Shown here: positions 37,346 through 56,672 of the stretch, piece after piece
Position numbering within the stretch: the first letter of the stretch is position 1
Layout of the letters: each line of letters opens with the position of its first letter
Assembly: GCA_021770755.1 (NCBI GenBank)
Contig: JAETQI010000031.1
Span: 1 to 64,000, forward strand
Reading direction: 5' to 3'
Source: Lachnospiraceae bacterium
Lineage (GTDB): Bacteria; Bacillota; Clostridia; Lachnospirales; Lachnospiraceae
Length of the DNA: 64,000 bases
Translations under genes and position numbers: made by a program
The notes under the pieces: model-generated
Seen by the model: only the letters and a program-made list of their open reading frames with translations
Databases searched by the model: none
Told to the model about the DNA's origin: nothing

Positions 37346-39037
37346 TTATCTACTCCCCCACACAGCCACATTGTCCCCGAGCGCGGTAAAGGTCATGACA
37401 ACCTTCCGCTCATTTGGATTAAAAAAGAGCTGTTCACTCGGCATTTTCAAAAAAACGCCCTTGTACGTCACACCGCCGACAGTGATCGTCATGTTGGGTG
37501 TGCCCTCCTCATACGTCCACGCTCCTGTCAGTTCACCCGACACCGTGCCGTCCTCATTCAGTGTGATCTTCGAGGGCTGCATGATCCCCAGGGTGTTGCT
37601 CCCCGCCTTCTGATAATACGTCGTGGGCGTATGTACGATAAATTCATAGTCCCCGCACATCTCGTCGACGGCGTATCCGTTCCCGCTGATCTTCTCGCCC
37701 GCATATTCATAGGGCGCAGCGACAAGCCAGCCGTCCTCGTTGACAAAGAGCTGCTGCACGCGCACTTCGTGCGCCTCGGGAATGCCGTTCTTGCCGTCCG
37801 CAAATCGGGAGTGATAGATCAGGAAGATCTCGCCGTCATCCGTCACATAGGCAGAATTATGCCCCTGCGCCACACGGATCTCACGGTTTCCGCTCCAGTC
37901 GTAGGAACCCATGATCCGCACGCCGACCTTCTCAAAGAGGTCATTGCACTCCTTCGTGTAGACCGCGCTGTTTCCCGCCTCATCCACGTAAGGTCCTGTG
38001 ATCTTGTCCGAGCGGAACACCCTCATCTGATATCCGCCGTCCGCCACAAGCCCGCCGTAGGACACGAACAGGTAATAATATCCGTCCCGCTCGATGATAT
38101 AAGGTCCTTCACCGGACACGCCGAAACCACCGTGCACTTTATATCCATAATAGGCGTCCTGCTCGTTTGGTATCGTCTCGTAGGTTGTCGTGTAGTCGCG
38201 CAGCCCCGTGTTCTCGTCAAGTTTCAGCATATACAGGCCGCCGAACCAGGATCCGAACACCATCCAGAGCGAGCCGTCCTTGTCAAAGACCACGCAGGGA
38301 TCGATCGCGTTGAGCTTCGTGTTCTTGATATTCTGGTATCTGGTCAGGTTCGCGTCCTCCCCGAGCACCTGGTACACATCGGTGAGCTTCACATCGTGCG
38401 AATCCGTATTAAATCCGGAGTACACCACCGGCCCCGCATACTCGTAAGGCCCCTCGATGCTGTCCGCCGTCAGCAGGACGATCACCGAATTCCAGTCATT
38501 GCCGTTCACACTCATGTAAAAGCAGTATTTTCCCATATTGGGATTGTAGATCACATCCGGTGCCCACAGATTTCCGTTCAGGTTGGGATTCGTCGCCGTT
38601 TTGCAGTATGATTCCCACTCCTTTCCGAACAGATCCGCGTACTCCGCGTTGATGTTCATCTGAAAAGTCTCCCAGTTCCTCAGATCCGTGCTCTTTGCCC
38701 ACGCCATATGAGAACCAAATATGTAGTATGTACCGTTGTCATATGCGACCGACGGATCATGTACGCTCACACGGCTGTATGACACTTCTGTCATTTCTGT
38801 TTCCTCCTCCTCTGCCGCAGACTGCTCTGACGGCGGATCCTGTGAGACGTTCTCCTTTGTCTGTCCGTCTGCATCAGTTCCTGTCCCGTTTGATTCCCCT
38901 GCATTTTCCGCCGCACTCTCCTGCGAGGCTGATGTATTGCTGTCCGCGGGCGCTGTTTTCTGTCCCCCGCATCCGCCAAGCAGTGCCGCCAGCAGCAGGG
39001 TCACTGCCAGCCGCCCCGCCACGATTCTTTTCCTCAT
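37346..39037 (-). CDS. GH43 arabinanase-like lipoprotein
   Basis: The protein has 563 residues from the ATG at 39037. A lipoprotein signal ends LLGGC (Cys23), then an acidic Ser/Gln linker (about 25-85). The catalytic five-bladed propeller starts VSVHDPSVAYDNGTYYIFGS with the general base Asp94, followed by the transition-state Asp in NAIDPCVVFDKDGSLWMVFGS and the general acid Glu in VSGEGPYIIERDGYYYLF. The last 110 residues (from PSKITLNEDGTVSGELTGAW) form an extra beta domain. This fits extracellular endo-1,5-alpha-L-arabinanases. It is the last sugar gene of the long operon and could cut arabinan before uptake. Confidence 0.9.
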   Translation of the reverse strand: MRKRIVAGRLAVTLLLAALLGGCGGQKTAPADSNTSASQESAAENAGESNGTGTDADGQTKENVSQDPPSEQSAAEEEETEMTEVSYSRVSVHDPSVAYDNGTYYIFGSHMAWAKSTDLRNWETFQMNINAEYADLFGKEWESYCKTATNPNLNGNLWAPDVIYNPNMGKYCFYMSVNGNDWNSVIVLLTADSIEGPYEYAGPVVYSGFNTDSHDVKLTDVYQVLGEDANLTRYQNIKNTKLNAIDPCVVFDKDGSLWMVFGSWFGGLYMLKLDENTGLRDYTTTYETIPNEQDAYYGYKVHGGFGVSGEGPYIIERDGYYYLFVSYGGLVADGGYQMRVFRSDKITGPYVDEAGNSAVYTKECNDLFEKVGVRIMGSYDWSGNREIRVAQGHNSAYVTDDGEIFLIYHSRFADGKNGIPEAHEVRVQQLFVNEDGWLVAAPYEYAGEKISGNGYAVDEMCGDYEFIVHTPTTYYQKAGSNTLGIMQPSKITLNEDGTVSGELTGAWTYEEGTPNMTITVGGVTYKGVFLKMPSEQLFFNPNERKVVMTFTALGDNVAVWGSR

Positions 39038-39096
39038 ACCGCTCTCCACTCCTTTCTATTGATGTGTTTCGTATGTCTGATATGATGATTTTAGAA

Positions 39097-39126
39097 AAGG
39101 AGGGCATCTGTTTCAACGCCCTCCTT
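39097..39126 (-). terminator. Terminator between the solute-binding protein and GH43 genes
   Basis: Arms AAGGAGGGC and GCCCTCCTT around a 12-base loop; on the minus strand followed by TTCT. It lies about 35 bases after the binding-protein stop, so GH43 may be transcribed by read-through or from its own promoter. Confidence 0.7.
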
Positions 39127-39160
39127 CTTGTCAACTGTATGTTACAATCCTGCACCCTTT

Positions 39161-40780
39161 CTAGTAATTCAGCTCGATGCCGATCATCTGATATGCTTCC
39201 TTCGCCGCTGCCAGCGCTGCCTGGTTTGCATCATAGCCCTTCTGCTCAAGCTCTGCCGCGAAGTCGTTTGCGTTCTTGCCTTCCAGACGAACCTGATCCT
39301 CAACGCCCAGCGTATCGCCTACTGCAAAGTAAGAGGTTGCCAGGAAATCAGCAAATCCCGGGATCTGGCAGTCACCAAACGGAACCGGATTCTTGCAGTT
39401 TGCAAAGAAGTCGTCAAAATACTTGCCGTACTTCGTATCCTCGTCCGCTGTGACAAGATCCTCGCCGTTTACAGGATCGTATACTGACTGATACGTTCTT
39501 GTAGCTGCTGTCGGATAGAAGGATTCCTGGAACTCTTTCCAGATCGCCTCATCGGTCGTGATCGGGCAGGGCATTGCCTGTCTGTAGAGCGGAAGATCCG
39601 CGTAAGTCTCGACATCCTGGTAAGCGTCAAGCTTTGTCTGCCAGCCTTCTGCGCCCCAGCCCATCCACTTTAAGAGCTCATATGCCTCTCTCGGATGCTC
39701 TGTCGATGAGGAGATCCCGCCAAAGTCAAGCACGCCAAATACGTATCCGCTCGCACTTGCCGGTGTCGTGTAAGGTACCCACTCCATACCGCGGTTTCTG
39801 TAATCCGGTGTGTCAAACAGGTTCAGATAAGTCCACCATGCGTCAATCTGGAAGCCAAGCTTTCCTGTGTAGGCAGCCCACATCGTCCTGTCGCCTGTCC
39901 ATGCTTCCATCTCGTCCGTATCGCCGTACGGTGCATGATACTTGCCGTTCACAAGCTCCGCCCACTGGTTCACGCCTGCTGCCCACTGATCCATGTGATA
40001 GTTCTTGCCGTCCCAGCCAAACTCGCCGATCAGGTTATTTCCGTTTGAGATCGGATAATAGGTAACGAGCGAGTGGAACTGGTTAAATCCATACGTGCCC
40101 GCATCGGTATTGGTCGCCGCCTTGAAAGCGTTGATCATCTCATCCCACGTCCAGTTGGTGGAAGGCGCATCGATGTTCAGCGTCTCAAACACGTTCAGGT
40201 CGCAGTAGATCGCATCCGGGAAGAACTTGATCGGTGTGGCAAGCTTCTTGTCTGTGCCATAATAGCCAAGCTTCGCACTGTTGATGGAAGGAAGGATATT
40301 CTGGTTCTCAGGATCCGCCTCCCAGTACGGTGTCATGTCGCCGAGCAGCGCGTTCGAGAGCGCAAAGTCGCAGTTTCCAAGGATCATAAAGCAGTCAGGT
40401 GTCTGTCCGGACTGGACCAGGTTCAGCAGCGTGTCATTATAACCGTCTGTGGAGAACGCCTGCGCCTCCACCTTGATGTTGGGATACTTTGCCATGAAAG
40501 CCTCCGCCACCCTGTTCACAAGCTGCTCGCTGTCAAAATGCATGTAAGTCAGCGTGATCTCATCGGTCGTCATCGCAGGAAGCCCTGCCGCGTCGCCTGT
40601 GCCGGCATCCGCGCCTGCCGCATCCCCTGTGCCGGCGTCCGCGCCTGTATTCGCATCCGCATTTGTATTGGTGTCTGTGTTTGTGCTGGCGCCCCCGTCT
40701 GCTGAGTTTCCTCCGCATCCGCCAAGCAGCCCTGCCACCAGAGTTGTCGCCATCATCAGGCTAACGATTTTCTTTTTCAT
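39161..40780 (-). CDS. CUT1 sugar ABC transporter substrate-binding lipoprotein
   Basis: The protein has 539 residues. The signal ends LLGGC with Cys22, then a linker of repeated NTDTN and GTGDAAGADA units (about 30-65). The family 1 solute-binding domain starts TLTYMHFDSEQLVNRVAEAF. The size and the C-terminal pattern fit oligosaccharide binders. CAAGGAGGAATAAG precedes the ATG. It is downstream of a permease pair, separated by a hairpin at 40854-40880. Confidence 0.9.
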   Translation of the reverse strand: MKKKIVSLMMATTLVAGLLGGCGGNSADGGASTNTDTNTNADANTGADAGTGDAAGADAGTGDAAGLPAMTTDEITLTYMHFDSEQLVNRVAEAFMAKYPNIKVEAQAFSTDGYNDTLLNLVQSGQTPDCFMILGNCDFALSNALLGDMTPYWEADPENQNILPSINSAKLGYYGTDKKLATPIKFFPDAIYCDLNVFETLNIDAPSTNWTWDEMINAFKAATNTDAGTYGFNQFHSLVTYYPISNGNNLIGEFGWDGKNYHMDQWAAGVNQWAELVNGKYHAPYGDTDEMEAWTGDRTMWAAYTGKLGFQIDAWWTYLNLFDTPDYRNRGMEWVPYTTPASASGYVFGVLDFGGISSSTEHPREAYELLKWMGWGAEGWQTKLDAYQDVETYADLPLYRQAMPCPITTDEAIWKEFQESFYPTAATRTYQSVYDPVNGEDLVTADEDTKYGKYFDDFFANCKNPVPFGDCQIPGFADFLATSYFAVGDTLGVEDQVRLEGKNANDFAAELEQKGYDANQAALAAAKEAYQMIGIELNY

Positions 40781-40853
40781 TCTTATTCCTCCTTGTTTTT
40801 TGTTATTTTAAATGAATAACTTTGCTATTACCATACAGCGTTACTTGCCGCGC

Positions 40854-40880
40854 AGAGAACGCCTGCCCCTGGCGTTCTCT
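40854..40880. promoter_or_regulatory. Intergenic hairpin between permease and binding-protein genes
   Basis: A perfect 10-bp inverted repeat AGAGAACGCC/GGCGTTCTCT with a seven-base loop touches the permease stop codon. It lacks a T-run, so it is more likely an mRNA stability element that lets the binding protein be made in excess than a terminator. Confidence 0.6.
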
Positions 40881-41904
40881 ACTCCCCAGTGATACCTGTG
40901 CGGTCAACGCTCTCGACAAACTGCTTCTGGAGCACGAGGTACATGATCAGCAGCGGTAGGATACTGAGCATCGTCCCCGCCATCTTGATGGACTCGTTGA
41001 TATCGACCATCCCGCTTCCCGCCACACTTCTTGCGGTGTTGTAGCTGTTCTCAAAATTCTTGAGCGATACGATCAGCGAACTCCAGTGATAAGCGTTCGC
41101 ATTGCTCGTAAATGCACCGACTACATAGAGCTGTGTCAGATAGGACTCATTCCAGTACCACACGATCGAGAACAGGAACACGACCAGGATCGCGGGTGCC
41201 GCTGACGGGAGCGCGATCTTTCGGAAGATCTTAAAGTGTCCTGCCCCGTCGATCTTTGCCGCCTCGATCAGCACCTTCGGGATCTGGCGGAAGAAGTTGA
41301 AGAAGATCAGTATGAAGATCTGGGACTTAAGTCCCTGCCCCAATATCGCCGGTATGATAAACGCCTTGATCGAATTGATCAGCCCGATCTCGGTGTAAAA
41401 CACGTAAGTCGGCATCATCGTCGCCTGCGGCGGCAGGATGAAGGAGAACAGAAGCAGTCCGATGCAGAGCTTCTTGCCCTTAAACTCATACCGCGCAAAC
41501 CCATATCCTACAATAGCACAGATCACAACATTTATCAATGTCGGAATTCCCGCGATCACAACGGAATCGCGGAATGTCTTCCAGTAATCCATGGACTGAA
41601 ATGCCTGCTTGTAATTTTCAAGATATAGCTGGCTCGGTATCCAGTTGATCGAGGTATCGAGCAGGTCATTGAGGTTCATGAAGCTCTTGCTGATCATGTA
41701 GAGCACCGGATAGAGATAGACGAACCCGATACTGATCAGCAGCAGATATACGGCTGCAAGCTTGCCCACGCCCTCGGTATCCTTGGAACCAAAGATGAAT
41801 TTTCTGACTTTATACCCGATCTGTTCACATCTATCCGGACTAAGCACTCTTTTTAGGCTGTTTCCGCTCGCGCTTTTCTTTTTGCTTTGCGTAGTTGCGC
41901 TCAT
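40879..41904 (-). CDS. CUT1 sugar ABC transporter permease (MalG-like)
   Basis: A 341-residue inner-membrane protein with a basic N-terminal tail of about 50 residues, six helices from near residue 49, and the EAA loop EAAKIDGAGHFKIFRKIALPSAAPAIL near 217-243. The start at 41904 follows GAGAGGTGAGCGGA; a GTG at 41913 in the same frame is possible. It overlaps the preceding permease gene by about 65 bases. It pairs with that permease to form the membrane channel. Confidence 0.9.
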   Translation of the reverse strand: MSATTQSKKKSASGNSLKRVLSPDRCEQIGYKVRKFIFGSKDTEGVGKLAAVYLLLISIGFVYLYPVLYMISKSFMNLNDLLDTSINWIPSQLYLENYKQAFQSMDYWKTFRDSVVIAGIPTLINVVICAIVGYGFARYEFKGKKLCIGLLLFSFILPPQATMMPTYVFYTEIGLINSIKAFIIPAILGQGLKSQIFILIFFNFFRQIPKVLIEAAKIDGAGHFKIFRKIALPSAAPAILVVFLFSIVWYWNESYLTQLYVVGAFTSNANAYHWSSLIVSLKNFENSYNTARSVAGSGMVDINESIKMAGTMLSILPLLIMYLVLQKQFVESVDRTGITGE

Positions 41905-42862
41905 TCCGCTCACCTCTCTTTCTGATCTTCTTTTCCAGACGTTTCTCTCTCTTTAATTCACGCTGGTACTTCTTTGCACGTCTCTCGTACACATCCTTGC
42001 GTCCCATGATCAGCACTGCAAAGAAGATGACGATCGCCGACTCAATAACGGAATACAGCCACGCCATCGCGGAGGCATATCCGTAACCGCCCGTAGCGGA
42101 GAGCATCGTGTCATAGATCAGTACGATCAGTGCATTCTGCTCGTTGTTTGACATAAAGATGACAGTGTATACAACATTCAGCAGGATCATCGGCTTCACG
42201 GTCGGAAGCGTGATCTTCCAGAAGCATTCCCACTTGGAGCCGCCGTCCATCTTCGCCGCCTCGTAGAGCGAGGTGTCGATCTTCTGCAGCGCCGCGAGGA
42301 AGATCAGGATCTGGACGCCGGAGTACCACAGCAGTGTGATCATGTTGCCGAACACGCTCGTGATGCTCACAGCGAGCACATGCGGCAGATATTCGTCCAA
42401 AAGCTGTTCGATCATCGTCACATTCATCATCGGAATGCTCGCCGCCTCCTGGTCTGCAAGCTGCTGCATGACAGGCCCGCTGGCGATGATGATCGGGAGG
42501 AAGAATATCATACGGAAGATTCCCCTGCAGGAGATCTTCTGATTCAGGAGCATCGCGATGATCAGTGAGAATGCCACGATGACAGGCACCGCGATCAGCG
42601 TCTCCAGAAGGTAAGACTCCAGTCCCATGATGAAGTCCGGATCTTTTAAGAAGATCTGGCTATAATTCTCAAATCCGACATAGAGCTTTGCCATCCCCTG
42701 CGGGAGCAGTTTGATCTTGTTGAGCGAATACCCAAAGGACTGCACCATGGGCCACAGCACCAGCACCAGGATCCCGATAAGCCATGGCAGTATGAACAGA
42801 TATCCGATCGCGTTCTCCCTGCGCTCCAACTGTCCGGGTTTTATTTTTCTCTTGTTCTTCAT
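41840..42862 (-). CDS. CUT1 sugar ABC transporter permease (MalF-like)
   Basis: A 340-residue inner-membrane protein with six helices and the EAA loop EAAKMDGGSKWECFWKITLPTVKP near 208-231. The unusual C-terminal tail is a 60-residue stretch rich in K, R and E (for example RAKKYQRELKREKRLEKKIR), which probably lies in the cytoplasm. The next gene starts inside the region coding for this tail, so it partly reflects overlapping coding. Confidence 0.9.
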   Translation of the reverse strand: MKNKRKIKPGQLERRENAIGYLFILPWLIGILVLVLWPMVQSFGYSLNKIKLLPQGMAKLYVGFENYSQIFLKDPDFIMGLESYLLETLIAVPVIVAFSLIIAMLLNQKISCRGIFRMIFFLPIIIASGPVMQQLADQEAASIPMMNVTMIEQLLDEYLPHVLAVSITSVFGNMITLLWYSGVQILIFLAALQKIDTSLYEAAKMDGGSKWECFWKITLPTVKPMILLNVVYTVIFMSNNEQNALIVLIYDTMLSATGGYGYASAMAWLYSVIESAIVIFFAVLIMGRKDVYERRAKKYQRELKREKRLEKKIRKRGERNERNYAKQKEKRERKQPKKSA

Positions 42863-42869
42863 CCTTCTC

Positions 42870-45158
42870 TCACCCCCCTATCACATACGAAAGCGCCGGA
42901 ACGGTCACACCGTCTGCCGTAAGCTCTGTCTCAGAATAATTGATGTACAGCTTCACACCATTGTCATAAGTCACGATCGTGACACCCGTGTCGGTGATCT
43001 CATGATCCGCGATCATGCTGTTTTTCGTGAGCTCGCTGATCTGTCTCAGCTCATCATAGTAGCTTAAGATCTGTCCGCGGTACACCGAGTACTGCGAGGT
43101 ATACACATCGCTGGAGTTCGTGTAGATCAGTTCAGAAGGATTCTCATACGTCAGGTAGAAGGAAGGATAGATCCCTGTCTCCACCAGTTTCAGGAAGTAC
43201 GCCCGCTCATTCGCCTCAAAGTTCACATAGTCGCCGTACATCGGCAGGATCCCTTTGAGTGCGATGGATAAGAACGGCACGCTCTGGTCTGTGTAGATGT
43301 AATCCGAATCCGCGATCGGCATGTCGACGATCGCCTTCGCATACTGCCAGTAACACTGAACCGGCGCCTCCAGCATGAGATCCATCGCCTCGCTTGTCTG
43401 CCGCAGCGCTTCCTCATACAGATATCTGGATACACGGCGCGTCTGCATCGTGTCCCCCATCGTGTAGGTGAACATCGTGTTGCCGATCTCGGACAGCGCG
43501 ATCCTGTCCACACCCTTTTTGTTAAAGTTCTTCTGCAGTGTCTGCAGGTTCTCAAGCGACTTCTGCGGCGTCCAGTACACGAACTCGCGGTACACATTCT
43601 GATACGTGTCCTGCGTGTACAGACGCTTATCCATCTTCTTGACCGTGTCAAACGTCGTGTTGCCGGTCTCGGTATTTGCCCGCACGCCGTCCGCGAACAG
43701 GTAGAAATCGATGTTCTTGCTCTCACACTCGTCCATGAGCTTTGACAGCTCTCCCGCTCCGCCGATGCTGCTGTCCACATCGTATGACGTCACCGGCAGG
43801 TCAAAGATGCCGCCGTCCTGCCAGCCCTTGTAGATCGACAGGATATCGGTCACGCCCTCCTTTTCCAGATCCGCGTAGATCTCCCTGATATTGTCGACCG
43901 TCGTCACCGGCGCGTCCTTTTTCCACAGCATCCAGTTCTCCACGTCCAGTCCCAGGAAGTCCAGCCTGACCTTAAAGTTATCCTCAACCTTAACCAGCTC
44001 ATCCTTCTCGAGCAGATAATCCCTGTAGCGCTTTGCCAGACCTGTATAGTTTGCGTTCTCCCCGTCGACGAACATGTATCTGACATTGATGTCATACTGA
44101 ATCCTGTCCGTGACCTTTGTCACGGAACCGCCGGAGTTTGAGGTCGGCTGTATGTATGTGGTACATTTCCGGAATGCCGCCGTGATCCAGTTGTAATCGG
44201 AGTACGCACCGTTTGGCGTCGCATAGATCGATGCCTCCTCGTCGCCGCTCTCGATGACCGCCAGATAGCCCATCCCGTCATCGGTGTGAACCATGCCGTA
44301 CACCGGCGCAAGGATCATCTCCGGGTCATTGTGCGTCTCATATTTTCCCCAGAGCAGGGAGAGCACGTAGGACTCACCGACACCGATATCCGAACCGTAT
44401 ACCTTCTGCACATAGCCGGAATCAAATCGTCCGTCCTTGTCGTCGAGGTAGATCAGCGCGCCGTTTCCGTCCGGCACGAACATGTACCCCTCCTTCTCGC
44501 CGAGCCGCGAGCTGCCAAGCAGCGGGAATACATAGATGTTTCCGATCTTTTTGTTCGCCGCATTCTCGTAGATGGAACTCTCCGGGATACATGCCGTGAT
44601 GCTGCCGTCGTCATAGAGCTTTACCTCCGCCTCAAAGCCAAGCTCCTGCGCCGGATAATCCAGCTTTGCGCGGAAGCCCCCCGGTATCATCTCAACGCTG
44701 ACCTGCGCGCCGCTCCCCTCGATCCCGAGCTTTCGCTGCATCGTGTTCGTCTCCTCCTGCAGCTCCACGACGATACCTGACTGCAGGAATCCCTTCCATG
44801 TCTCATTGACATTTCCGAGCCGTTCTTCATCGCGGACCGTGGATTCCATCACCGCACCTGTCTTGGTGTTTTTGACGATGATGGAGAGCGCAGGCTCATA
44901 CAGATAGAGTTCATAGCTGTCATTTGCCGCCACCAGATGGTGTCCGTCAAGTTCCTTGGAGGTGTCGACCGCCCCGTCGCTCAGCGCTGCGCCGGGCGCG
45001 CTGACCGTCGGCTGCAGATCGCTGACATTCAGGCTGTCCTTTCCTCCCGACCTGGAAGCCATCACTGCGACCGCGATGATCACAATGATGACCAGTACGG
45101 CAATGATCAGTCTGATGAGGCTTTTGCCCATTTTCTTCATATCTAATTTAGCTTCCAA
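42870..45158 (-). CDS. DUF5696 membrane-anchored protein (putative glycan-active enzyme)
   Basis: The protein has 762 residues. An N-terminal helix (about 13-35, LIRLIIAVLVIIVIIAVAVM) anchors a large extracytoplasmic part. It includes a beta domain (about 75-350, IYVFPLLGSSRLGEKEGYMFVPDGNGALIYLDD) and a TIM-barrel-like part from about 390 (FLGLDVENWMLWKKDAP, LSIYKGWQDGGIFDLPVTSY, IDFYLFADGVRANTETG, RIALSEIGNTMFTYTMGD). The second part resembles glycoside hydrolase barrels, but no family is established. The start is TTG with AGAGGTGG nine bases upstream, overlapping the end of the NHL-Yip1 gene. It is encoded between two ABC permease pairs. Confidence 0.75.
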   Translation of the reverse strand: MEAKLDMKKMGKSLIRLIIAVLVIIVIIAVAVMASRSGGKDSLNVSDLQPTVSAPGAALSDGAVDTSKELDGHHLVAANDSYELYLYEPALSIIVKNTKTGAVMESTVRDEERLGNVNETWKGFLQSGIVVELQEETNTMQRKLGIEGSGAQVSVEMIPGGFRAKLDYPAQELGFEAEVKLYDDGSITACIPESSIYENAANKKIGNIYVFPLLGSSRLGEKEGYMFVPDGNGALIYLDDKDGRFDSGYVQKVYGSDIGVGESYVLSLLWGKYETHNDPEMILAPVYGMVHTDDGMGYLAVIESGDEEASIYATPNGAYSDYNWITAAFRKCTTYIQPTSNSGGSVTKVTDRIQYDINVRYMFVDGENANYTGLAKRYRDYLLEKDELVKVEDNFKVRLDFLGLDVENWMLWKKDAPVTTVDNIREIYADLEKEGVTDILSIYKGWQDGGIFDLPVTSYDVDSSIGGAGELSKLMDECESKNIDFYLFADGVRANTETGNTTFDTVKKMDKRLYTQDTYQNVYREFVYWTPQKSLENLQTLQKNFNKKGVDRIALSEIGNTMFTYTMGDTMQTRRVSRYLYEEALRQTSEAMDLMLEAPVQCYWQYAKAIVDMPIADSDYIYTDQSVPFLSIALKGILPMYGDYVNFEANERAYFLKLVETGIYPSFYLTYENPSELIYTNSSDVYTSQYSVYRGQILSYYDELRQISELTKNSMIADHEITDTGVTIVTYDNGVKLYINYSETELTADGVTVPALSYVIGG

Positions 45159-47187
45159 TTCTATACACCACCTCTCGCAATACAGAGCTTATGAAGTCGA
45201 TCACCTGTGAGAACAGTACATAAATGATACAGATCAGCAGTGACAGGATCAATACGGTAAATGCCGTGAGCGCCAGCGCCTTGGCTGTCTCCTTCACCGT
45301 GAAGTTGTTCATCTCCTTCACAGAGATCAGCAGGAGCACCACCATCCATACCAGCACAATGATGTTCGCAAACGAGATCAGGAACACTTCATTGTAGGTG
45401 AGCACATTCGACAGAATGATCACAAACGGCTTGATGATAATAAACGGTGTCAGACAGTACGCATAAGCGCAGTACAGTTCCTTCAAAAACGCCTCGCCCT
45501 CGTTGATCGTCACGACCAGGTAGTTGCAGAGCGTCAGCCCGATAAAGATCACGAGCACCGTGCCGATATCCGAGATGATGTCATAACGCCCCTCCCGCAC
45601 GGTCTTTACGAGGAAACCGCTGAAATACTTCTCTATGATCGAGACAAGGATATATGCCGCAAGGAGAATGTTCGCGCAGGCAAGACTCGCCCTGCCCTCC
45701 CGCTTCACGCCGTAGCAGCCGTCAAACGGGTGCCGCATGAAATACAGGCTGTACTTTAGGCTTCCAAGGAGCGGTACTCTCTGCGAGAGCCGCGCCGGCG
45801 CGCCGTCTGCCCCGTATTTGATTAGCTGGCGTTTTTTGTACAGGCTTAGCGCCACCGCGAGAACCACGATCACCGCCACCGCTGTCACCAGATAATTTCT
45901 GATCCAGATATTGCGGACCTCCCAGAATGCGTCCGAGTAGCCGTCCGCGGACTTTGCAAGCTTAAAATAGCGGAGCGCTTCCGTGTAATTCTCCTCCTGC
46001 AGATACGCATGACCCATCGCCTGGTTGGCGTAGTCAAACATACTGTTCATCTGCAGGACTTTTTCGAGCGGCTCCTTGCTCTCCGTGTACCTGCCTTTTG
46101 AGAAGAGATAAAGCGCCTCGTGGAGCAGGTTCGTAAATTCTGTCGGCGTAAAGATATGTACCTGCTTCTTGTCCGAATCCAGCAGATAGATCCTGTCGGA
46201 GTCGTCCACCGCGATCGCCTCCACCTTGTTGCACAGACCGATACGCTGGCGGCCGTCGTCGCGTCCGCCGAACATGAACAGCAGCTCGCCCTCCTCGTTG
46301 TACTCATAGATATATCCGTCCGAATCCGCCACCAGCATATTGCGGTACTGTCCGGTCGTCACTGCCGCCGGGAGATCCGCCCAGTACGGGTCGGAATCGA
46401 GCATGTTCCTGCCCGCGATGTTGAGCTTCTTGAGCGCCATGTCCTTGTCGCCCTGCGTCACCGTGTAGATCAGCCCCTCCTCGTCAATATGGAGGTTTGT
46501 CGGTGTCGAGGGGATATTGCTTAACATCTGTGCACGCTGTGCGTCCGTCAGGATCAGCCGCTGCAGGATCTGGAACGGACTTAACGACGTGTAGTTCGTA
46601 CCGAAATATCCAAGGAAGGAACCGCCCTCCACCGGACTGATCTGGACGATACCGTTCATGTTTCCCTCACAGATCACATACATCGTACCCGTGCCGTTTG
46701 CCACGACCTTGATCGGGCGAAAATCCATGGAACTGCCATAGATCGGTGAATCGGGCTTTCCGTACTCGTTCAAAAGATTTCCTTCCAGATCATACACAAA
46801 GACCTTCTTCGCATCCTTGTCAGCGACGTACACCTTGTCGTCATCTGACACGAACACGCCCGTCGGCGCCTGTAAGGTGCCTTCCCCGATCATGCGGACT
46901 TCCTCGCCGCCGACCGTGCTGACCATGACCACATGCGCTCCGGCATCTGCTATATACAGGTTTCCGTCATTCCCGATCGCCATGTCCATCGGCGTCACAA
47001 AGGAGGTATCCCCGACCTTGGTGATGGCAGACGCCGGATTGTACGCGGACTGCGTCTCCAGCACATACCCGTAACCGTCTACCGTATACGTTCTATAGGG
47101 TGTCTCCGCGATCGCCGTGGAACTGAGGATCAGACTCAGGCACAGCGCCAGCAGGATCACTAATTTTGCTTTTTTTCTCATATTCAT
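45148..47187 (-). CDS. NHL-repeat, TPR and Yip1-domain membrane protein
   Basis: The protein has 679 residues. Signal peptide (about 1-27, ending STAIA), then NHL-like beta-propeller repeats (about 50-345; DMAIGNDGNLYIADAGAHVV, FVSDDDKVYVADKDAKKVFV, IAVDDSDRIYLLDSDKKQVH). A TPR-like helical pair (about 350-430) is followed by a helix at about 437-457 and a C-terminal Yip1-type bundle (about 490-665). The fusion of an outside propeller to a Yip1 bundle is unusual but recurs beside DUF5696 genes. ATG at 47181 has the better ribosome site spacing. Probably an accessory of the transporter; this is inference. Confidence 0.78.
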   Translation of the reverse strand: MNMRKKAKLVILLALCLSLILSSTAIAETPYRTYTVDGYGYVLETQSAYNPASAITKVGDTSFVTPMDMAIGNDGNLYIADAGAHVVMVSTVGGEEVRMIGEGTLQAPTGVFVSDDDKVYVADKDAKKVFVYDLEGNLLNEYGKPDSPIYGSSMDFRPIKVVANGTGTMYVICEGNMNGIVQISPVEGGSFLGYFGTNYTSLSPFQILQRLILTDAQRAQMLSNIPSTPTNLHIDEEGLIYTVTQGDKDMALKKLNIAGRNMLDSDPYWADLPAAVTTGQYRNMLVADSDGYIYEYNEEGELLFMFGGRDDGRQRIGLCNKVEAIAVDDSDRIYLLDSDKKQVHIFTPTEFTNLLHEALYLFSKGRYTESKEPLEKVLQMNSMFDYANQAMGHAYLQEENYTEALRYFKLAKSADGYSDAFWEVRNIWIRNYLVTAVAVIVVLAVALSLYKKRQLIKYGADGAPARLSQRVPLLGSLKYSLYFMRHPFDGCYGVKREGRASLACANILLAAYILVSIIEKYFSGFLVKTVREGRYDIISDIGTVLVIFIGLTLCNYLVVTINEGEAFLKELYCAYAYCLTPFIIIKPFVIILSNVLTYNEVFLISFANIIVLVWMVVLLLISVKEMNNFTVKETAKALALTAFTVLILSLLICIIYVLFSQVIDFISSVLREVVYRIGS

Positions 47188-47198
47188 CCCCCATTCCG

Positions 47199-48071
47199 CT
47201 ATTTAATGCCTGAATGAGCCATCGTGTTCATGAAGCTCTTTCGAAGGATCAGGAATATTGCGAGGTTTGGTATAAACTGCAGCAGGATGCCTGCCGCCTG
47301 GATTCCCTGCCCTGCCACGTTGCTGTTCTGGTTTGCCAGTGTGTTCAGATAAAATGCCAGGGTCTTCATACTCTCGTCATTCACATAAAAGTTCGAGCTC
47401 TCGACATTGACCCATACCTGCTGGAACGACAGGATCGCCGTCGTCGCGATCGCCGGCTTCACCAGCGGCAGAATGATGGAACGGTAGATCTTGAAGTCGT
47501 TCGCGCCGTCCATGTACGCCGCATCGAGCAGTGCATCCGGGATCTGGTCGATAAACTGCTTCACCAGAAACAGTCCGACCGGCAGCGCCAGAAGCGGCAG
47601 AATGTGCGCGAAATATGTATCCTTCATGCCAAGGAAGTCGATCACGAGATATCTCGGGATCATGACCGCCACAGACACGAACATGAGCGCCGTATTGTTG
47701 ATCTCGAGCAGCGCATACTTGCCCTTGAAGCGAAGCTTCGACAGCGCAAAACCTGCCATCGTGGAGAACAGGATCGACAACAGCACCACGGAGCCTGTCA
47801 CGATCAGACTGTTGAACACATAGCGGCTCATCGGAATGTTGCTGTTTGCCGACGCCTTGAACAGTTTCACGAAATTGTCGAGCGTCGGCTTGTGCACAAT
47901 GATCTGCGGAGGGAAGGCAAAGAGCTCATCCATCGGCTTGAACGCATGGCAGACGATGAACACAATGGGAATCCCCATAAACACCGCCAGCGGCAGCAGG
48001 ATCAGTATGATCTTCAACTGTCCCCACTCAAATTTCTTGGGATTGATATTACAACCTTTATATCCAGCCAT
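47199..48071 (-). CDS. CUT1 sugar ABC transporter permease (MalG-like), first pair
   Basis: A 290-residue inner-membrane protein with six helices and the EAA loop LLDAAYMDGANDFKIYRSIILPLVKPAI near 187-214. GAAAGGAGGGTGAAAG precedes the ATG. It pairs with the MalF-like permease just upstream and should work with the 990-residue binding protein. No ATPase is encoded nearby; CUT1 importers of Firmicutes often share one (MsmX type). Confidence 0.92.
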   Translation of the reverse strand: MAGYKGCNINPKKFEWGQLKIILILLPLAVFMGIPIVFIVCHAFKPMDELFAFPPQIIVHKPTLDNFVKLFKASANSNIPMSRYVFNSLIVTGSVVLLSILFSTMAGFALSKLRFKGKYALLEINNTALMFVSVAVMIPRYLVIDFLGMKDTYFAHILPLLALPVGLFLVKQFIDQIPDALLDAAYMDGANDFKIYRSIILPLVKPAIATTAILSFQQVWVNVESSNFYVNDESMKTLAFYLNTLANQNSNVAGQGIQAAGILLQFIPNLAIFLILRKSFMNTMAHSGIK

Positions 48072-48086
48072 CTTTCACCCTCCTTT

Positions 48087-49004
48087 CTAATCTTCCCGGA
48101 ACAGCCGTCCGAAGAATTTCGAGAATGCAAATACCATCAGGAGCAGCACAACGGAAACTGCCGCGGCATAACCCATCTCGTATCTTAAGAAACCGTAGTC
48201 TTCAATGTGGTTTACGATCAACTGCCCCGCGTAGTTTGGCGTCGGGTTTGTTCCCGCAAGCTGCACGCCGATCGCACCGTTCTGGAAAGCGCCCACGATC
48301 GCCATGACCGCGCCAAAGAGCATCTGCGGCTTCATCGTCGGGATCGTGATGTAGATCATCTCCTGGAAACGGTTCTTCACGCCGTCGATCGCCGCCGCCT
48401 CGTAGATCTCCTCGTCCGCGTTCAAGATACCCGCGAGCATCGCCAGGAAGCCAACGCCCATGCTCGACCACAGCGCGACGATGATGATGATCGGCAGCAG
48501 ATACCTTGCATCCACCAGCCAGATGATCGGCGCGTCGATGACGCCAAGCCGCATCAGGAAGCTGTTTAAGTACCCCATCTGGTCGCCGGAGAAGATGATC
48601 TTCCACAGCACCGTCATCGACACCGCGCCCGTCATACTCGGCGAGTAGAAGATGACCGTCAGTATGGTCCTTGGCACGGAGCTTAACTGTGCCAGACACC
48701 ACGCCACCAGAAACGACAGCACATATCCGCCCGGCCCCACGATCACCGCGTAGATGATCGTGTTGGGCAGCACCTTCTGCATAAAGATGTCGTCCGCTGT
48801 CAACAGATTGATATAATTCAGAAAGCCTTTGAACGTCGGCGTCTGTATCGTATCATAACTTGTGAAAGAGAGCGCGATCGCCACCAGCATCGGTATGATG
48901 ATGAAGATAGTGAACAGGATCACATACGGCGCCAGAAATGCGTATGCAGCTTTGTTCGCATGTTCCCTCTGCGCAGCCTTCGTCTTTTTTGTTCTCGCCG
49001 CCAT
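48087..49004 (-). CDS. CUT1 sugar ABC transporter permease (MalF-like), first pair
   Basis: A 305-residue inner-membrane protein: basic start, first helix at about 21-45 ([20 protein letters not shown]), six helices in all, EAA loop [28 protein letters not shown] near 202-229. Its ATG follows directly after the TAA of the large binding-protein gene, with GGAGGCGGAG as ribosome site, so the two are coupled. Confidence 0.93.
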
Positions 49005-51977
49005 TTACTCCGCCTCCTTTGATTTCGCTATGATCTCGCGCACCTTCTCGACTGTCGGCACCTCGTACTCTTTCACCATCTCGCCGTTCTCCATGTACCC
49101 GAACTCCTCGAGCTTTCGCTGTGTCTCGCGCTTCACGCTCTTCTGCGCATCGTCGAGTGATTCCCGCACCGACGCGCTCTTGGCACCGAGCACCACCAGA
49201 TTATACGCATCGGAGAGCTCGCGCTCCACCATGTAGCTTGCCAGGGCTCTTGGCGCCTCCAGTGTCCAGTCGAGCTGCTCTAAGATCACCGCTTTGTCGT
49301 CGCTGTCCCACGGAAGCTGTGCGAACGCCTCCGCATTTGCCGTGTTCCAGTAATATTCGTCGCCGTACGTGATCTGCAACCGCTGGCCAAACTCAGCCTG
49401 CACCTCGGCGCTCGACCACCATTTCACAAACTCCCATGCTTTCTGTTCCCGCTCAGGATCAGACTCAAACAGGAAGGTCGACTCCGCGCCCGCCGACGAG
49501 TAACGCATCACCTCGCCGTCCGCGTTCTTCACGCCCGGGATCAGCGCCACGCCCCACGAACCGTCGATCTCGGGCGCCGCGTTGGAGATCATATTGTAGT
49601 TTCCAAAATCAGAGATGCCGATCGGATAGTCCCCGTTTCTGAAATGCTGGTAAAAATTCGGCACATCTTTTGGAAGATTGTAGATCGTAAACAGGTTTGT
49701 CAGTGTGGTAAAGCCCTCCACATTCTCCTCGCTTGTCAGGATCGCCTTGTCGATCGCGCCGTCATACAATGTCCCGCCGCTCTGGAACAGGATCGGCGTC
49801 GTGTCGAGGAACGTCTTCATACCTACCGTTCTCGCCGTCGGATAATAGAAATTCAGTCCGCGCATCTGCAAGTCGGGAAGCATCGCCTGCACATCCTCCA
49901 TCGTGTCCGGCACCTCCAGCCCAAGCTTGTCAAGAATATCTTTTCTGTAAAACATCACCTGGAAATTCATCGTCTCCGGCAGCGCGTAGATCCTGTCCCC
50001 GATGACATACGGCATGATCAGACCCGCGTTGTAGCGCTCCGCTACCTCCGCAAAGTCAGGAAACTCCGTCAGATCCTTCAGCGCGCCCCTGATCCCCAGC
50101 TCAAACGGGATCGAGTAGTTTACACCCGTCGCCACATCCGGCGAATCCCCCGACGCATTTGCCAGCACGAGCTTTGTCTGGTCCGGCATCAGCGAGAGAT
50201 CCACCTCGATGCCCGTCTGCGGCGTGAACTGCTCGTTGATCAGTAGCTGCATGATCTCAAGATGCTGCCTCGAACGGTTCACCGACACCTGCAGATGCTC
50301 CGGGTTGGTATTCGTGGAGGAGTACGCCTGCTCCCCGAACGATGTGAAGAACCGCACGATGCCAAGCCACATCTTGGTAAAGATGTTCTTGTTCTTCGGA
50401 AGTTGCTTTGCCGCGTCCTCCTGATACAGATAGATGCTGTCCAGCGCGAAATCATTGCCGTTTAAGCTGTCGATCAGGTTTGCAAGATGCTGGTTGACCG
50501 AGGAGGTGCTTGTCGCAAGCTCGTCGATCCTGTAGATCAGCTCATCCGGCTTCTTTGCCAGACTCCTTAGCTGGTTCTCCGCGATCTTGACCGAGGCGTA
50601 GGCAGCGATCTTATTTTTATTGGGATTATACACCCGCGCGTCCTCCATGACCTGGTCAAGCTCATCCGCCCAGCCCGTCATCATCTCCCCGATGCCCGGT
50701 ATGTACGCTTCGAGGGAGAAATCCCTGTACTTATCCTTGTTCGTACCAGCAACCTTTGTGACCTCGAGCGACAGGTCATTGACCCTGCCCATGATCTTCT
50801 CGATCGTCTCCAGAGACTCCCTGATCGGCTCCATACTGATCTGCATGGAGATCGTGTGGGTTCCCGCCTCAAGCGGTATGCTGATCTTGCTGCCGTCACC
50901 GTCGACCATCGTGTACATCTCATATTTCTTCTCATACGCGAACGCATGATTCTCAAACGCCGTATTCGGAATCTTACCGTCGATCTTCACATTCATAAAG
51001 ACCGGGAAGTCCGCCTTATCGCCCTGGCTGTAGTGAAAAGCGATATAGTAGTTTCCCGCCTTCTCCGCGTTGAAGCTGTACGTTACCTCCTGTCCGCCCT
51101 CGCCAAACGAAGTCGCATCGACCGTGTTCATCACCCGGTTTCCCGCCTGATAGGGATACAGGTCTGGATCGTACTCGCACGTTGCGTGGATCGCCGAATC
51201 ATTTCTATATAAGAAATCTTCCGCCTGAATCTCGATGAAACCATCGCCCGGCGCCGCCTCGCTGCCCGTGTACTCCGGCACCTGCGGCTTTGCTGTCAGG
51301 CAGATATCGCCCAGCAGAAGTGTTCCCTCGTTCAATTCGATGGAGATCGTGTTCTTCCCCTGTGCAAGCTCGATGCCAAGCGGCTGTGTGTACCGGTATG
51401 TAGAATCCTGCACATACTTGTTCTGCCAGTCATACACTTTGTCCGGCATGCTGACAACCTCATTGCCATAGCTGTCGTACACCTTATCCGGCTTCGCTGT
51501 CCACTGGCTCTCCAGCTTCTGCTGGCGCATCTCGTAAAACGGATATTCACCGTTCACCATGATGCCTGCCTCCACCGGAAGAATGGACTCGCTGTTTGCC
51601 AGATAGTCAAAATTCATATAATAGACTGCTGACTGCGGCACATCGATCTCGAGTTCCACCCTGCCCTTCTCCGGAATGGATAGCGCTGTGTATCCGTCCT
51701 CTGTTGTCAGACTGGCATCTCCCGCCCTGTACACATCGCCCGCCTTGTAGCGGACTGCCTCACCCGTGTAGGCGGCGAGCGTATAACCCGCGCTCACCTT
51801 TGTGTAGCCATTGTCCAGTCTCTCATTTGAATACGTTTCTGTCACTGTCCCCTGAGCTGTCTGTCCTGGTTCCTGTGCCCTTAGCTGCATTGCCGGAAGC
51901 GCTGTCACTGCTGTAGTGACAGTCATACACACTGCGATGCTAAGCGCCATGACTTTCTTTGCATTTCCTCTTTTCAT
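49005..51977 (-). CDS. 990-residue solute-binding protein with N-terminal carbohydrate-binding-like domains
   Basis: Signal peptide (about 1-35, ending LRAQ) without a lipobox. Two beta-rich regions follow (about 80-230 and 245-400; GDGFIEIQAEDFLYRND and EKAGNYYIAFHYSQGD resemble CBM6/35-type folds), then a helical linker (about 410-560). The C-terminal family 1 binding domain starts near 590 (HLEIMQLLINEQFTPQTGIE, YALPETMNFQVMFYRKDILD, WEFVKWWSSAEVQAEFG). Ordinary binders are about 400-550 residues. The protein may both hold the polysaccharide and deliver products to the permeases encoded next. AAAGGTCGGGTCGTC precedes the ATG. Confidence 0.82.
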   Translation of the reverse strand: MKRGNAKKVMALSIAVCMTVTTAVTALPAMQLRAQEPGQTAQGTVTETYSNERLDNGYTKVSAGYTLAAYTGEAVRYKAGDVYRAGDASLTTEDGYTALSIPEKGRVELEIDVPQSAVYYMNFDYLANSESILPVEAGIMVNGEYPFYEMRQQKLESQWTAKPDKVYDSYGNEVVSMPDKVYDWQNKYVQDSTYRYTQPLGIELAQGKNTISIELNEGTLLLGDICLTAKPQVPEYTGSEAAPGDGFIEIQAEDFLYRNDSAIHATCEYDPDLYPYQAGNRVMNTVDATSFGEGGQEVTYSFNAEKAGNYYIAFHYSQGDKADFPVFMNVKIDGKIPNTAFENHAFAYEKKYEMYTMVDGDGSKISIPLEAGTHTISMQISMEPIRESLETIEKIMGRVNDLSLEVTKVAGTNKDKYRDFSLEAYIPGIGEMMTGWADELDQVMEDARVYNPNKNKIAAYASVKIAENQLRSLAKKPDELIYRIDELATSTSSVNQHLANLIDSLNGNDFALDSIYLYQEDAAKQLPKNKNIFTKMWLGIVRFFTSFGEQAYSSTNTNPEHLQVSVNRSRQHLEIMQLLINEQFTPQTGIEVDLSLMPDQTKLVLANASGDSPDVATGVNYSIPFELGIRGALKDLTEFPDFAEVAERYNAGLIMPYVIGDRIYALPETMNFQVMFYRKDILDKLGLEVPDTMEDVQAMLPDLQMRGLNFYYPTARTVGMKTFLDTTPILFQSGGTLYDGAIDKAILTSEENVEGFTTLTNLFTIYNLPKDVPNFYQHFRNGDYPIGISDFGNYNMISNAAPEIDGSWGVALIPGVKNADGEVMRYSSAGAESTFLFESDPEREQKAWEFVKWWSSAEVQAEFGQRLQITYGDEYYWNTANAEAFAQLPWDSDDKAVILEQLDWTLEAPRALASYMVERELSDAYNLVVLGAKSASVRESLDDAQKSVKRETQRKLEEFGYMENGEMVKEYEVPTVEKVREIIAKSKEAE

Positions 51978-52587
51978 GACGACCCGACCTTTCTGATCAC
52001 AAACAAGCCATTTTTTTGCCTCGGCTCATTTGTTTTATTCATGAGTTAAATGTTTTAGTATTTCTTTATGTAATAACATTACGATATTCTGGCAAAAAAG
52101 TCAATATAGATTCTGATTAACCTTGTCACTATGAACACCCAAATCCCTTGATTTTATAGGGATTTCATAAGTTCTGCGCCTTGTGACGAAATTTGGCTGT
52201 TCATTTTGTGCACTATCACCAATTTCTGTATTTTCGCAAATTTTCGTTTACAAGCAGTTTGCTTTTAGTAAGCATTAAATGTTTCACTAAATAATTTATT
52301 CTTTTAGTTTTTTGCTTTTATTATACGATATTTTTATTTTCGTTTGCGCCCTCTCATTTTTTGTCCAGCAAAATGATACTGTTCTATCCTTATTTCAGGG
52401 GAAATATTCAGACAATAACAAAAACAGAAAAATCCGTATGTCAAATTGACAATTCACTTTACTTTTACAGTGAATTGTTTTGTGCATTTTGACCTATATA
52501 TTTTAGTCTTGACTTTTGTTTTAGTTTTCACTATAATGAGCTCAATACCACTTAACAAAAAATTAAAGAAAAGGAGGCATATGACTG
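51978..52587. promoter_or_regulatory. 610-bp divergent control region of the glycan operon and its regulator
   Basis: This AT-rich gap has no gene. Minus-strand promoter toward the large binding protein: TTGACT (52099-52104), 17 bases, TAATGT (52076-52081). Plus-strand promoter toward the regulator: TTGACT (52509-52514), 17 bases, TATAAT (52532-52537). Related AT-rich strings recur: TTAAATGTTTTAGTA near 52046, TTAAATGTTTCACTA near 52275 and GTTTTCACTATAAT near 52524. These may be binding sites of the ArsR-like regulator. Confidence 0.65.
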
Positions 52588-53517
52588 ATGCTGTACTTTC
52601 GCTCTGTCGGCGAAGCCGAAAATGTCTTCAAGGCATTGAGTACACCCATGCGCGTGAAGATCATGGAAATGATATACGAAGACGACTCCCTCAGCATGAA
52701 CGATCTGGCAGAAGCGCTCGGTCTCACGAACGGCGCGATCTCCATGCATGTAGGAAAACTGGAGGAGGCAGGACTTGTGCGGATCAAGATCACCTCCGGC
52801 AAGCGCGGGACGATGAAGATCGTGCGCCCGCGGTATGACCGGCTGATGATCGACCTGGCGCCTGTCAAGGAAGCGAGGCGCTGCTACACGGACGATATCC
52901 GTGTCGGATATTACACGGCGTGCCACGCCACGCCGACCTGCGGGCTTGCCACGAGCAAGGAGATCATCGGCTCGCTCGACGATCCCAGGGTGTTCTCCTT
53001 CCCGGACCGTTTCCAGGCGGGGATCCTGTGGTTCACCAGCGGATATGTGGAATACAACCTGCCAAACCACCTGCAGGCAGGCCAGACCCTGTCAGAGCTG
53101 CAGATCTCCTTCGAGATCTCGTCGGAATGTCCGAACACCAATGAAGATTATCCCTCCGACATCTATTTCTCGATCAACGGGATCCCGCTCGGCATGTGGA
53201 TCAGCCCCGGCGATTACGGCGGGCGCAGCGGCTATGTGTCTCCGGCGTGGTGGCCGGAAAAACTGAATCAGTACGGTCTGCTCAAAACGCTGATCATCAA
53301 CAATGAGGGCTGCTTTATGGACGGGACAAACAAGCTCTCCGACGTGACGATCCAGGATCTTGGCCTGGACTACAACAGTTACATCACATTCAAGTTCGAG
53401 GTCCCAAGGGATACCGCAAACTGCGGCGGGTGTACCCTGTTTGGTGAGGATTTTGGCGACCACAACCAGGCGATCCGCATCAAGGCATACTATGATGAGG
53501 AAAACCCTGAGAATTAA
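52588..53517 (+). CDS. ArsR-like regulator with a large C-terminal sensor domain
   Basis: The protein has 309 residues. The winged HTH occupies residues about 8-75 (ENVFKALSTPMRVKIMEMIY, SMNDLAEALGLTNGAISMHV and KLEEAGLVRIKITSGKRG). The remaining 230 residues are beta-rich, with LQISFEISSECPNTNEDYPS, DIYFSINGIPLGMWISPGDY and TFKFEVPRDTANCGGC, and have nine or so cysteines. I do not recognise the domain; a jelly-roll sugar sensor would fit. Divergent to the glycan operon, it is its most likely regulator. AGGAGG lies ten bases upstream of the ATG. Confidence 0.8.
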   Translation: MLYFRSVGEAENVFKALSTPMRVKIMEMIYEDDSLSMNDLAEALGLTNGAISMHVGKLEEAGLVRIKITSGKRGTMKIVRPRYDRLMIDLAPVKEARRCYTDDIRVGYYTACHATPTCGLATSKEIIGSLDDPRVFSFPDRFQAGILWFTSGYVEYNLPNHLQAGQTLSELQISFEISSECPNTNEDYPSDIYFSINGIPLGMWISPGDYGGRSGYVSPAWWPEKLNQYGLLKTLIINNEGCFMDGTNKLSDVTIQDLGLDYNSYITFKFEVPRDTANCGGCTLFGEDFGDHNQAIRIKAYYDEENPEN

Positions 53518-54408: not shown

Positions 54409-54427
54409 AAATCAATCCCTCCGCATT

Positions 54428-55291: not shown

Positions 55292-55307
55292 AGCCCCTCC
55301 TAAAACC

Positions 55308-55332
55308 GAAGAACGCTGCACTTGCGTTCTTC
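55308..55332 (-). terminator. Terminator between the aminotransferase and patatin genes
   Basis: Arms GAAGAACGC and GCGTTCTTC with a seven-base loop; on the minus strand followed by GGTTTT. The T-run is short, so some read-through is likely. Confidence 0.65.
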
Positions 55333-55354
55333 CCATGCAAAGCTTTAGAATTTC

Positions 55355-56557: not shown

Positions 56558-56672
56558 CTTACTCCTCCATTCGATCGTGCATTCTCTTCATTCTGTTTCG
56601 TCTACTCATTGTATCACTATGACAGAAAAAATGCAATCATGTTCACACCCATCCGCTTTCGGCGTTTTTGTC

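Follow-up and report, generated by a model that had tools for sequence, protein, structure and literature searches.

A candidate glycan-uptake cassette of two CUT1 importers, an NHL-TPR-Yip1 protein, and a GH129-like DUF5696 protein in Lachnospiraceae

Polysaccharide utilisation loci (PULs) of Bacteroidetes combine a constant core, the TonB-dependent SusC and the lipoprotein SusD, with exchangeable enzymes. Gram-positive PULs (gpPULs) of Roseburia and its relatives bring together an ATP-binding cassette (ABC) transporter, a regulator, and glycoside hydrolase (GH) genes. How plant polysaccharides are held and imported is, to our knowledge, less understood for Gram-positive bacteria of gut and soil than for Bacteroidetes with their SusCD route. 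The locus analyzed here lies in a 64,000-nucleotide stretch of DNA from a Lachnospiraceae bacterium (GenBank assembly GCA_021770755.1, contig JAETQI010000031.1, positions 1 to 64,000), hereafter the window, the genome being a 4.7-Mb draft with 97.7% completeness. In this locus, two CUT1 importers, each with two permeases and a solute-binding protein (SBP1-A1-B1 and A2-B2-SBP2), flank an NHL-TPR-Yip1 protein and a DUF5696 protein, and the set is, as judged from comparison across genomes, inherited together.

The cassette shares with gpPULs the grouping of transporter, regulator, and GH genes. We know of no gpPUL with a DUF5696/NHL-Yip1 core, nor of an NHL-Yip1 or DUF5696 partner of the AraNPQ-MsmX system of Bacillus subtilis, and none of the papers listed by the literature search had gpPULs together with Yip1 or the NHL repeat. 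As a repeated cassette with a constant capture and transport core, exchangeable enzymes, and many copies in some genomes, it resembles the SusC/SusD loci, from which it differs by the absence of an outer membrane or TonB, by ABC importers in their place, and by unrelated proteins; no Pfam match to a TonB-dependent SusC or to SusD was found among the 17 window proteins searched. AraNPQ-MsmX is similar in being a CUT1 importer with a shared MsmX ATPase and a conserved MalG-type permease tail, and its substrates include arabinotriose (PMC5730181); it is a single importer, in contrast to the two importers with NHL-Yip1 and DUF5696 described here. The ATPase-less CUT1 operons of Clostridium phytofermentans likewise consist of two permeases and a binding protein, with GH genes beside half of the loci and the MsmX-like Cphy_3611 encoded elsewhere (PMC4452783, PMC4230839). 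A word search for Yip1 and NHL in the main texts of these two articles returned zero mentions. Literature searches for DUF5696, PF18952, Yip1 or NHL with transporters, and NHL with Paenibacillus, whose scope left out most subscription journals, returned nothing on the cassette and no paper naming DUF5696. Importers, enzyme, and shared ATPase belong to known kinds; what appears new to us is their fixed association with NHL-Yip1 and with a GH129-like protein whose catalytic site is altered. An even chance is given to the reading that the genes encode a cassette for glycan uptake, here of arabinan, in which a pseudo-glycosidase is combined with a propeller scaffold.

The locus comprises nine minus-strand genes at 37346-51977 and a divergent ArsR-like regulator, with the following features.

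52588-53517, plus strand: divergent regulator, 309 residues, ArsR-type winged helix (Pfam HTH_24/HTH_5) and an unassigned C-terminal domain
52449-52478, no strand: near-perfect inverted repeat with 13-nt arms between the regulator and SBP1, putative operator (0/100 shuffles)
49005-51977, minus strand: SBP1, 990 residues, C-terminal solute-binding domain (SBP_bac_1), N-terminal half without Pfam match, no lipobox
48087-49004, minus strand: permease A1, MalF/UgpA type, BPD_transp_1, own clade in the permease tree
47199-48071, minus strand: permease B1, MalG/UgpE type, BPD_transp_1, C-terminal tail SGIK
45148-47187, minus strand: NHL propeller, TPR-like helices, membrane helix, and Yip1 membrane domain, 679 residues (Pfam, AlphaFold, fold match)
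42870-45158, minus strand: DUF5696, N-terminal hydrophobic anchor and GH129/GH101-like fold, with E557 in the column of the catalytic Asp and E597 in that of the catalytic Glu
41840-42862, minus strand: permease A2, BPD_transp_1, EAA loop EAAKMDG, lysine-rich C-terminal tail
40879-41913, minus strand: permease B2, BPD_transp_1, EAA loop EAAKIDG, tail GITGE, overlaps A2, start codon uncertain
39161-40780, minus strand: SBP2, 539-residue lipoprotein solute-binding protein (SBP_bac_1)
39085-39145, minus strand: terminator- or attenuator-like hairpin ahead of the GH43 gene
37346-39049, minus strand: GH43 and GH43_C lipoprotein, endo-alpha-1,5-L-arabinanase type

The gaps from SBP1 to GH43 were, in order, 0, 15, 11, -11, 7, -74, 98, and 111 bases. 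The original prediction, made from the letters of the window, had named this gene run, its domains, and the divergent ArsR-like gene; all its coordinates coincided with open reading frames (ORFs) and Pfam agreed, with GH43 set apart by the hairpin.

Gene order was compared in 115 loci, namely, the window, 34 regions surrounding module-type DUF5696 copies (out of 40 regions fetched for DUF5696 matches in a sample of 100 genomes from the same family, each representing a different genus), and 80 named loci. The named loci are not an unbiased sample, as the query came from the arabinan-type clade and 80 of 212 confirmed loci were kept. The short loci L001 to L035 (overlapping or short fetches), the relatives L070 to L075, and two cut-off pieces in genome G016 stand outside this count. 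An NHL or Yip1 gene was directly upstream of DUF5696 in 115/115 loci, and permeases A and B were directly downstream in 114/115, the sole rearranged locus (L069) having the permeases upstream and every part kept. SBP1, permease A, permease B, and NHL/Yip1 followed in this order in 99/99 loci that had 6.5 kb or more of upstream sequence, a second SBP was found in 98 of the 102 loci with at least 4.5 kb downstream, and the cassette was complete in 90 of 93 with room on both sides. Seventeen of the 115 loci encoded NHL and Yip1 separately (split type), and others, including the window, had them fused. Twenty further loci (L217 to L236), hand-picked from other families and from places unmatched in the adjacency counts below and counted separately, all had the order NHL/Yip1, DUF5696, permease A, permease B. 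The arrangement is far beyond chance and recurs in 114 loci besides the window.

Two individual loci showed additional features. The genome of the window carries a second cassette (L036, G000:C21:54000-73000) whose DUF5696 is 21% identical and whose NHL and Yip1 are encoded by two genes; its divergent regulator is of the AraC type, and a GH5 enzyme is encoded nearby. In another cassette, the gene for an 877-residue protein with five CBM65 stretches (L046:4377-7010, minus strand) separates permease B2 from SBP2.

Co-occurrence was analyzed in two genome samples chosen independently of the cassette. DUF5696 (E ≤ 1e-20) and full-length NHL-TPR occurred in an identical set of 26 of 299 phylum genomes, representing 11 families by code, and module-type DUF5696 and full-length NHL-TPR in an identical set of 23 of the 100 family genomes. 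In 30 further phylum genomes, the NHL matches were partial, mostly a few propeller blades, and one of them (G342, E 4e-53) is a possible cut-off copy. Partial-length relatives of DUF5696 were carried by 18 other family genomes with a match, and the regions from five of them (L070, L072 to L075) were inspected; L071 was taken from a genome that has the cassette as well. In the phylum sample, the partner adjoined at least 36 of 46 DUF5696 places and at least 36 of 42 NHL places, both counts being lower bounds since at most four DUF5696 and three NHL candidates were scored per genome. Of the 16 places left unmatched, seven (L230 to L236) were inspected as fetched regions, and the partner adjoined in all 7. 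The expected co-occurrence of DUF5696 and NHL-Yip1 genes with CUT1 permeases was borne out, as the permeases adjoined in 135 loci (115 and 20); the two genes were not found mostly apart from sugar transporters. Five genomes of 2.2 to 3.0 Mb had 8 to 15 DUF5696 matches above 300 bits each. Small genomes of this size (G139, G161, G181, G234, and G264, from two other families) had 8 to 19 DUF5696 matches each, an expansion that recalls SusCD pairs.

The DUF5696 protein matched its Pfam family with E 6e-165, and its closest named relatives were in Lachnospiraceae genomes at 91 to 92% identity. Its AlphaFold model (mean pLDDT 83.7, 33 sequences) was matched best by Foldseek to GH129 5opq (E 9e-32, TM 0.60 by query length), followed by NagBb 5wzn (E 3e-25) and then GH101. 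A DUF5696 profile search also reached GH129 by sequence (5opq, E 1.5e-11). DUF5696 therefore resembles the GH129/GH101 glycosidases (NagBb, ZgGH129, SpGH101) in overall fold, with weak sequence similarity to GH129. The relative L073 aligned with NagBb end to end (E 7e-271), by which the catalytic columns are those of NagBb D435 and E478, which we take to be the nucleophile and the acid/base. Structure titles list D486 of ZgGH129 and D764 and E796 of SpGH101 as mutated residues. In contrast to these enzymes, the Asp and Glu pair was present in 0/115 cassette proteins, compared to 6/6 relatives outside the cassette (L070 to L075) in the alignment, and an N-terminal hydrophobic anchor is present in the cassette proteins. 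The two positions were occupied by Gly/Glu in 68 copies, Asp/Asn in 9, Glu/Glu in 8, and 19 other combinations in 30. Different branches appear to have lost different members of the pair, because the split branch mostly retains Asp and the fused branch mostly Glu. With the pair missing in 115/115, DUF5696 as a plain, canonically active GH129 is ruled out, and from the aligned residues it is concluded that canonical GH129 chemistry is probably not under selection, although two acids remain in the window copy. By simple rules of our own, on which all hydrophobic-helix and lipobox counts rest, the N-terminal hydrophobic helix was found in 113/115 DUF5696 proteins and a lipobox-like motif in 15/115. 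Outside the cassette, short DUF5696-like proteins in L070 (8676-10358) and L071 (9226-10980) retained both catalytic residues, Asp and Glu, and form a bridge between DUF5696 and GH129/GH101; they are candidate active glycosidases of unassigned substrate.

The NHL-TPR-Yip1 protein matched NHL and Yip1 in Pfam, with TPR_1 only below the cut-off. Its AlphaFold model (mean pLDDT 85.4, pTM 0.70) combines a signal-like helix with a beta-propeller and TPR-like helices; the membrane part is made up of a long helix and a helical domain. Foldseek matched the model to NHL propellers.

Both importers have the CUT1 makeup of a MalF-type and a MalG-type BPD_transp_1 permease plus SBP_bac_1. The EAA loop, the contact site for the ATPase, reads EAAAIDG in A1, with the sequences listed above in A2 and B2, and the variant DAAYMDG in B1. 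The permease tree covered 141 sequences, 76 taken from 19 cassettes and 65 others mostly from the window's own genome, and was built by a quick method without a mixture model and with a long-branch warning among the rows labeled 'other'. In this tree, A1, B1, A2, and B2 formed four clades (SH-aLRT 97 to 100). This result counts the window's own four permeases, labeled 'other', into their groups; as labeled, each group needed 2 changes. Pairwise distances of SBP1, A1, B1, NHL, DUF5696, A2, and B2 correlated at 0.91 to 0.98 over 26 loci. The four clades and the correlated distances suggest that the two importers have long formed a unit.

SBP1 and SBP2 probably differ in how they are attached, because a lipobox-like motif was found in 2/98 SBP1 homologues versus 112/119 SBP2 homologues. 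Two stretches of the N-terminal half of SBP1 share a similar motif (VNGEYPFYE and IDGKIPNTAFE), which suggests a duplicated carbohydrate-binding-like module; no family matched it. In a PDB sequence search, the C-terminal solute-binding domain of SBP1 was matched, and upstream of it, among the best 60 of 111 matches, just two designed coiled-coil chains.

The prediction had also pointed to the missing ATPase. None was indeed found in the locus: no ORF of the window, L036 to L075, or the 80 named loci scored above 99 bits against the ATPase of the window's own genome, with 12 weaker matches. The absence is not remarkable and was dropped as a finding, since one ATPase with an OB_MalK domain is encoded on a different contig of the same genome, where the search covered ATPases with that domain, and CUT1 operons of such bacteria usually lack an ATPase. 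Most ABC-transporter operons of C. phytofermentans are without an ATPase, and an MsmX-like one was suggested to serve them (PMC4452783). The window's genome had 31 matches to permease A1 and 33 to B1 (E ≤ 0.001). Permease B1 ended in SG[ILM]K, followed by no more than one residue, in the window and 30/30 further loci, a tail that seems comparable to the conserved tail of the MsmX-dependent AraQ of B. subtilis, removal of which impairs function (PMC5730181).

The GH43 lipoprotein matched endo-1,5-alpha-L-arabinanases with GH43_C (4kca, E 1.2e-107), and its residues D98, D250, and E314, presumably the catalytic positions, aligned with identical residues of 4kca. Its best NCBIfam match, AbnB, reached 310 bits and was below the equivalog cut-off of 750 bits. 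Because a strong hairpin lies between SBP2 and GH43 (14-bp stem, -22.8 kcal/mol, z -5.7, equally stable in 0/200 shuffles), the GH43 gene may be a separate or attenuated transcript; an Rfam search of the window gave no match. On the other side, flush with the GH43 stop codon, the minus strand at 34033-37345 encodes a MoxR-type AAA protein, a DUF58 protein, and a 417-residue ORF without Pfam match, and similar-sized ORFs come after GH43 in the near relatives L077, L078, and L080.

Among 30 hand-picked proteins neighboring cassettes, 18 matched glycan-active or glycan-binding Pfam families (GH51-type, GH43, GH130, GH5, GH3, GH36, GH31, GH2, PL11, and CBM65), and the rest were regulators, unrelated, or without a clear match. 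GH43 or GH51 was present in the fetched flanks of 59 of the 80 named loci, which are of the fused type, and GH130 adjoined 6 of the 17 split-type cassettes. By these neighboring enzymes, the substrate of the window cassette would be arabinan, and part of the split branch would serve beta-mannan. Of arabinan and xylan, named in the prediction as targets of GH43 enzymes, the endo-arabinanase-type GH43 favors arabinan and nothing pointed to xylan. On arabinan, 22 ABC transporters of C. phytofermentans rise (PMC4230839).

A hidden Markov model of the regulator, built from the window protein and one relative, gave matches above 60 bits in 48 of the 80 named loci. The inverted repeat is weak as an operator, since its motif was not found in 19 relatives with the same divergent layout. 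Past the regulator, at 53560-59561 on the minus strand, are genes for BacA, a patatin with DUF6363, an aminotransferase, and a 962-residue penicillin-binding protein, for which no link to the cassette was seen.

In the glycan-uptake reading, DUF5696, a membrane-anchored GH129-like domain without the canonical pair, would hold or guide glycan chains outside the membrane without cutting them, and the NHL-TPR-Yip1 protein would be the membrane scaffold linking it to the permeases. SBP1 would capture chains and SBP2 would deliver oligosaccharides, with one shared MsmX-type ATPase driving both importers. The substrate would be set by the exchangeable neighboring enzymes and would here be arabinan, first cut by the GH43 lipoprotein under control of the ArsR-type regulator. 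We infer that the cassette proteins form a physical complex.

A number of observations speak against this reading. The SBP1 importer was upstream in 10 of the 20 further loci and SBP1 downstream in 3, and the other 7, all from two other families, had no SBP1 importer beside the pair in the fragment. DUF5696 matches above 300 bits outnumbered SBP1 matches above 300 bits in 6 of 9 genomes (e.g., 10 versus 4 and 8 versus 4), with at least one SBP1 in all 9 genomes counted, 8 of them multi-copy. Because of the SBP1-less loci and this excess of DUF5696, the two importers need not form one unit, their invariable presence is ruled out, and the minimal unit is NHL-Yip1, DUF5696, and one permease pair, with the SBP1 importer as a usual companion. 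SBP2 was missing in 4 of the 102 loci with room for it, and the correlated distances may reflect only the common descent of linked genes. Neither GH43 nor GH51 was seen in 21 of the 80 named loci, some of them through contig ends, and none of ten enzyme queries matched in 8 of the 17 split-type cassettes. C. phytofermentans, a relative of which carries a cassette (strain KNHs2131, L097), grows poorly on arabinan (PMC4230839). The window DUF5696 is itself one of the eight copies with Glu at both catalytic positions and, going by these residues, may still be catalytically active. As for the suggested surface machine between two transporters, the DUF5696 helix and the propeller with its membrane helices agree with a surface location, and the position between transporters did not hold in the loci without the SBP1 importer.

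The same observations bear on the leading alternative, in which the CUT1 importers share an operon but are independent, each serving oligosaccharides of a different size. DUF5696 would then trim oligosaccharides at the membrane as a glycosidase that is active with changed catalytic residues, and NHL-Yip1 would have a separate role, such as anchoring. That half a cassette can occur without the other half fits independent importers, and an active enzyme would agree with the whole GH129-like fold being kept and with the two acids of the window copy. The nucleophile position, however, is Glu, Lys, Val, or Asn among copies 74 to 92% identical to the window protein, which is hard to square with catalysis, and no cassette copy has the Asp and Glu pair; this alternative is considered rather unlikely.

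It is less probable still, and on the whole improbable, that NHL-Yip1 and DUF5696 act as a pair in sensing or quality control, signaling glycan occupancy or assembling or stabilizing the permeases, with no part in glycan handling during import. A large propeller coupled to a membrane domain would suit such a role, as would the constancy with which the pair adjoins permeases regardless of the enzymes, but no signaling domain was among the Pfam matches of either protein and a regulator is already present in the locus. That the genes form a mere chance or lineage-bound cluster, with no functional link between them, is highly improbable, for although descent alone can conserve operon order and the 80 named loci come from a one-clade query, both odd genes occur in the same genomes in two samples not picked by the cassette, 11 families are represented in the phylum sample, a far diverged second copy (L036) is present in the same genome, and the break-up in most lineages that would favor it is the opposite of what was seen.

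The glycan-uptake reading has a stronger form that is possible but doubtful. In this form, the cassette would be a counterpart of SusCD in bacteria without SusCD, a stable membrane assembly with two ABC importers joined by the propeller-TPR-Yip1 scaffold and by a GH129-like glycan holder that is catalytically dead. The assembly would keep long glycan chains at the membrane for exchangeable enzymes to shorten and for both importers to take in, and in some lineages it would have spread to at least 8 copies per small genome.

The cassette centers on two proteins without an assigned role. For DUF5696, a fold is now assigned, the partners are constant, and canonical catalysis has likely been lost, which makes its function directly testable. 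The cassette as a whole looks like a general kit for plant-polysaccharide uptake, of which this copy is apparently tuned to arabinan.

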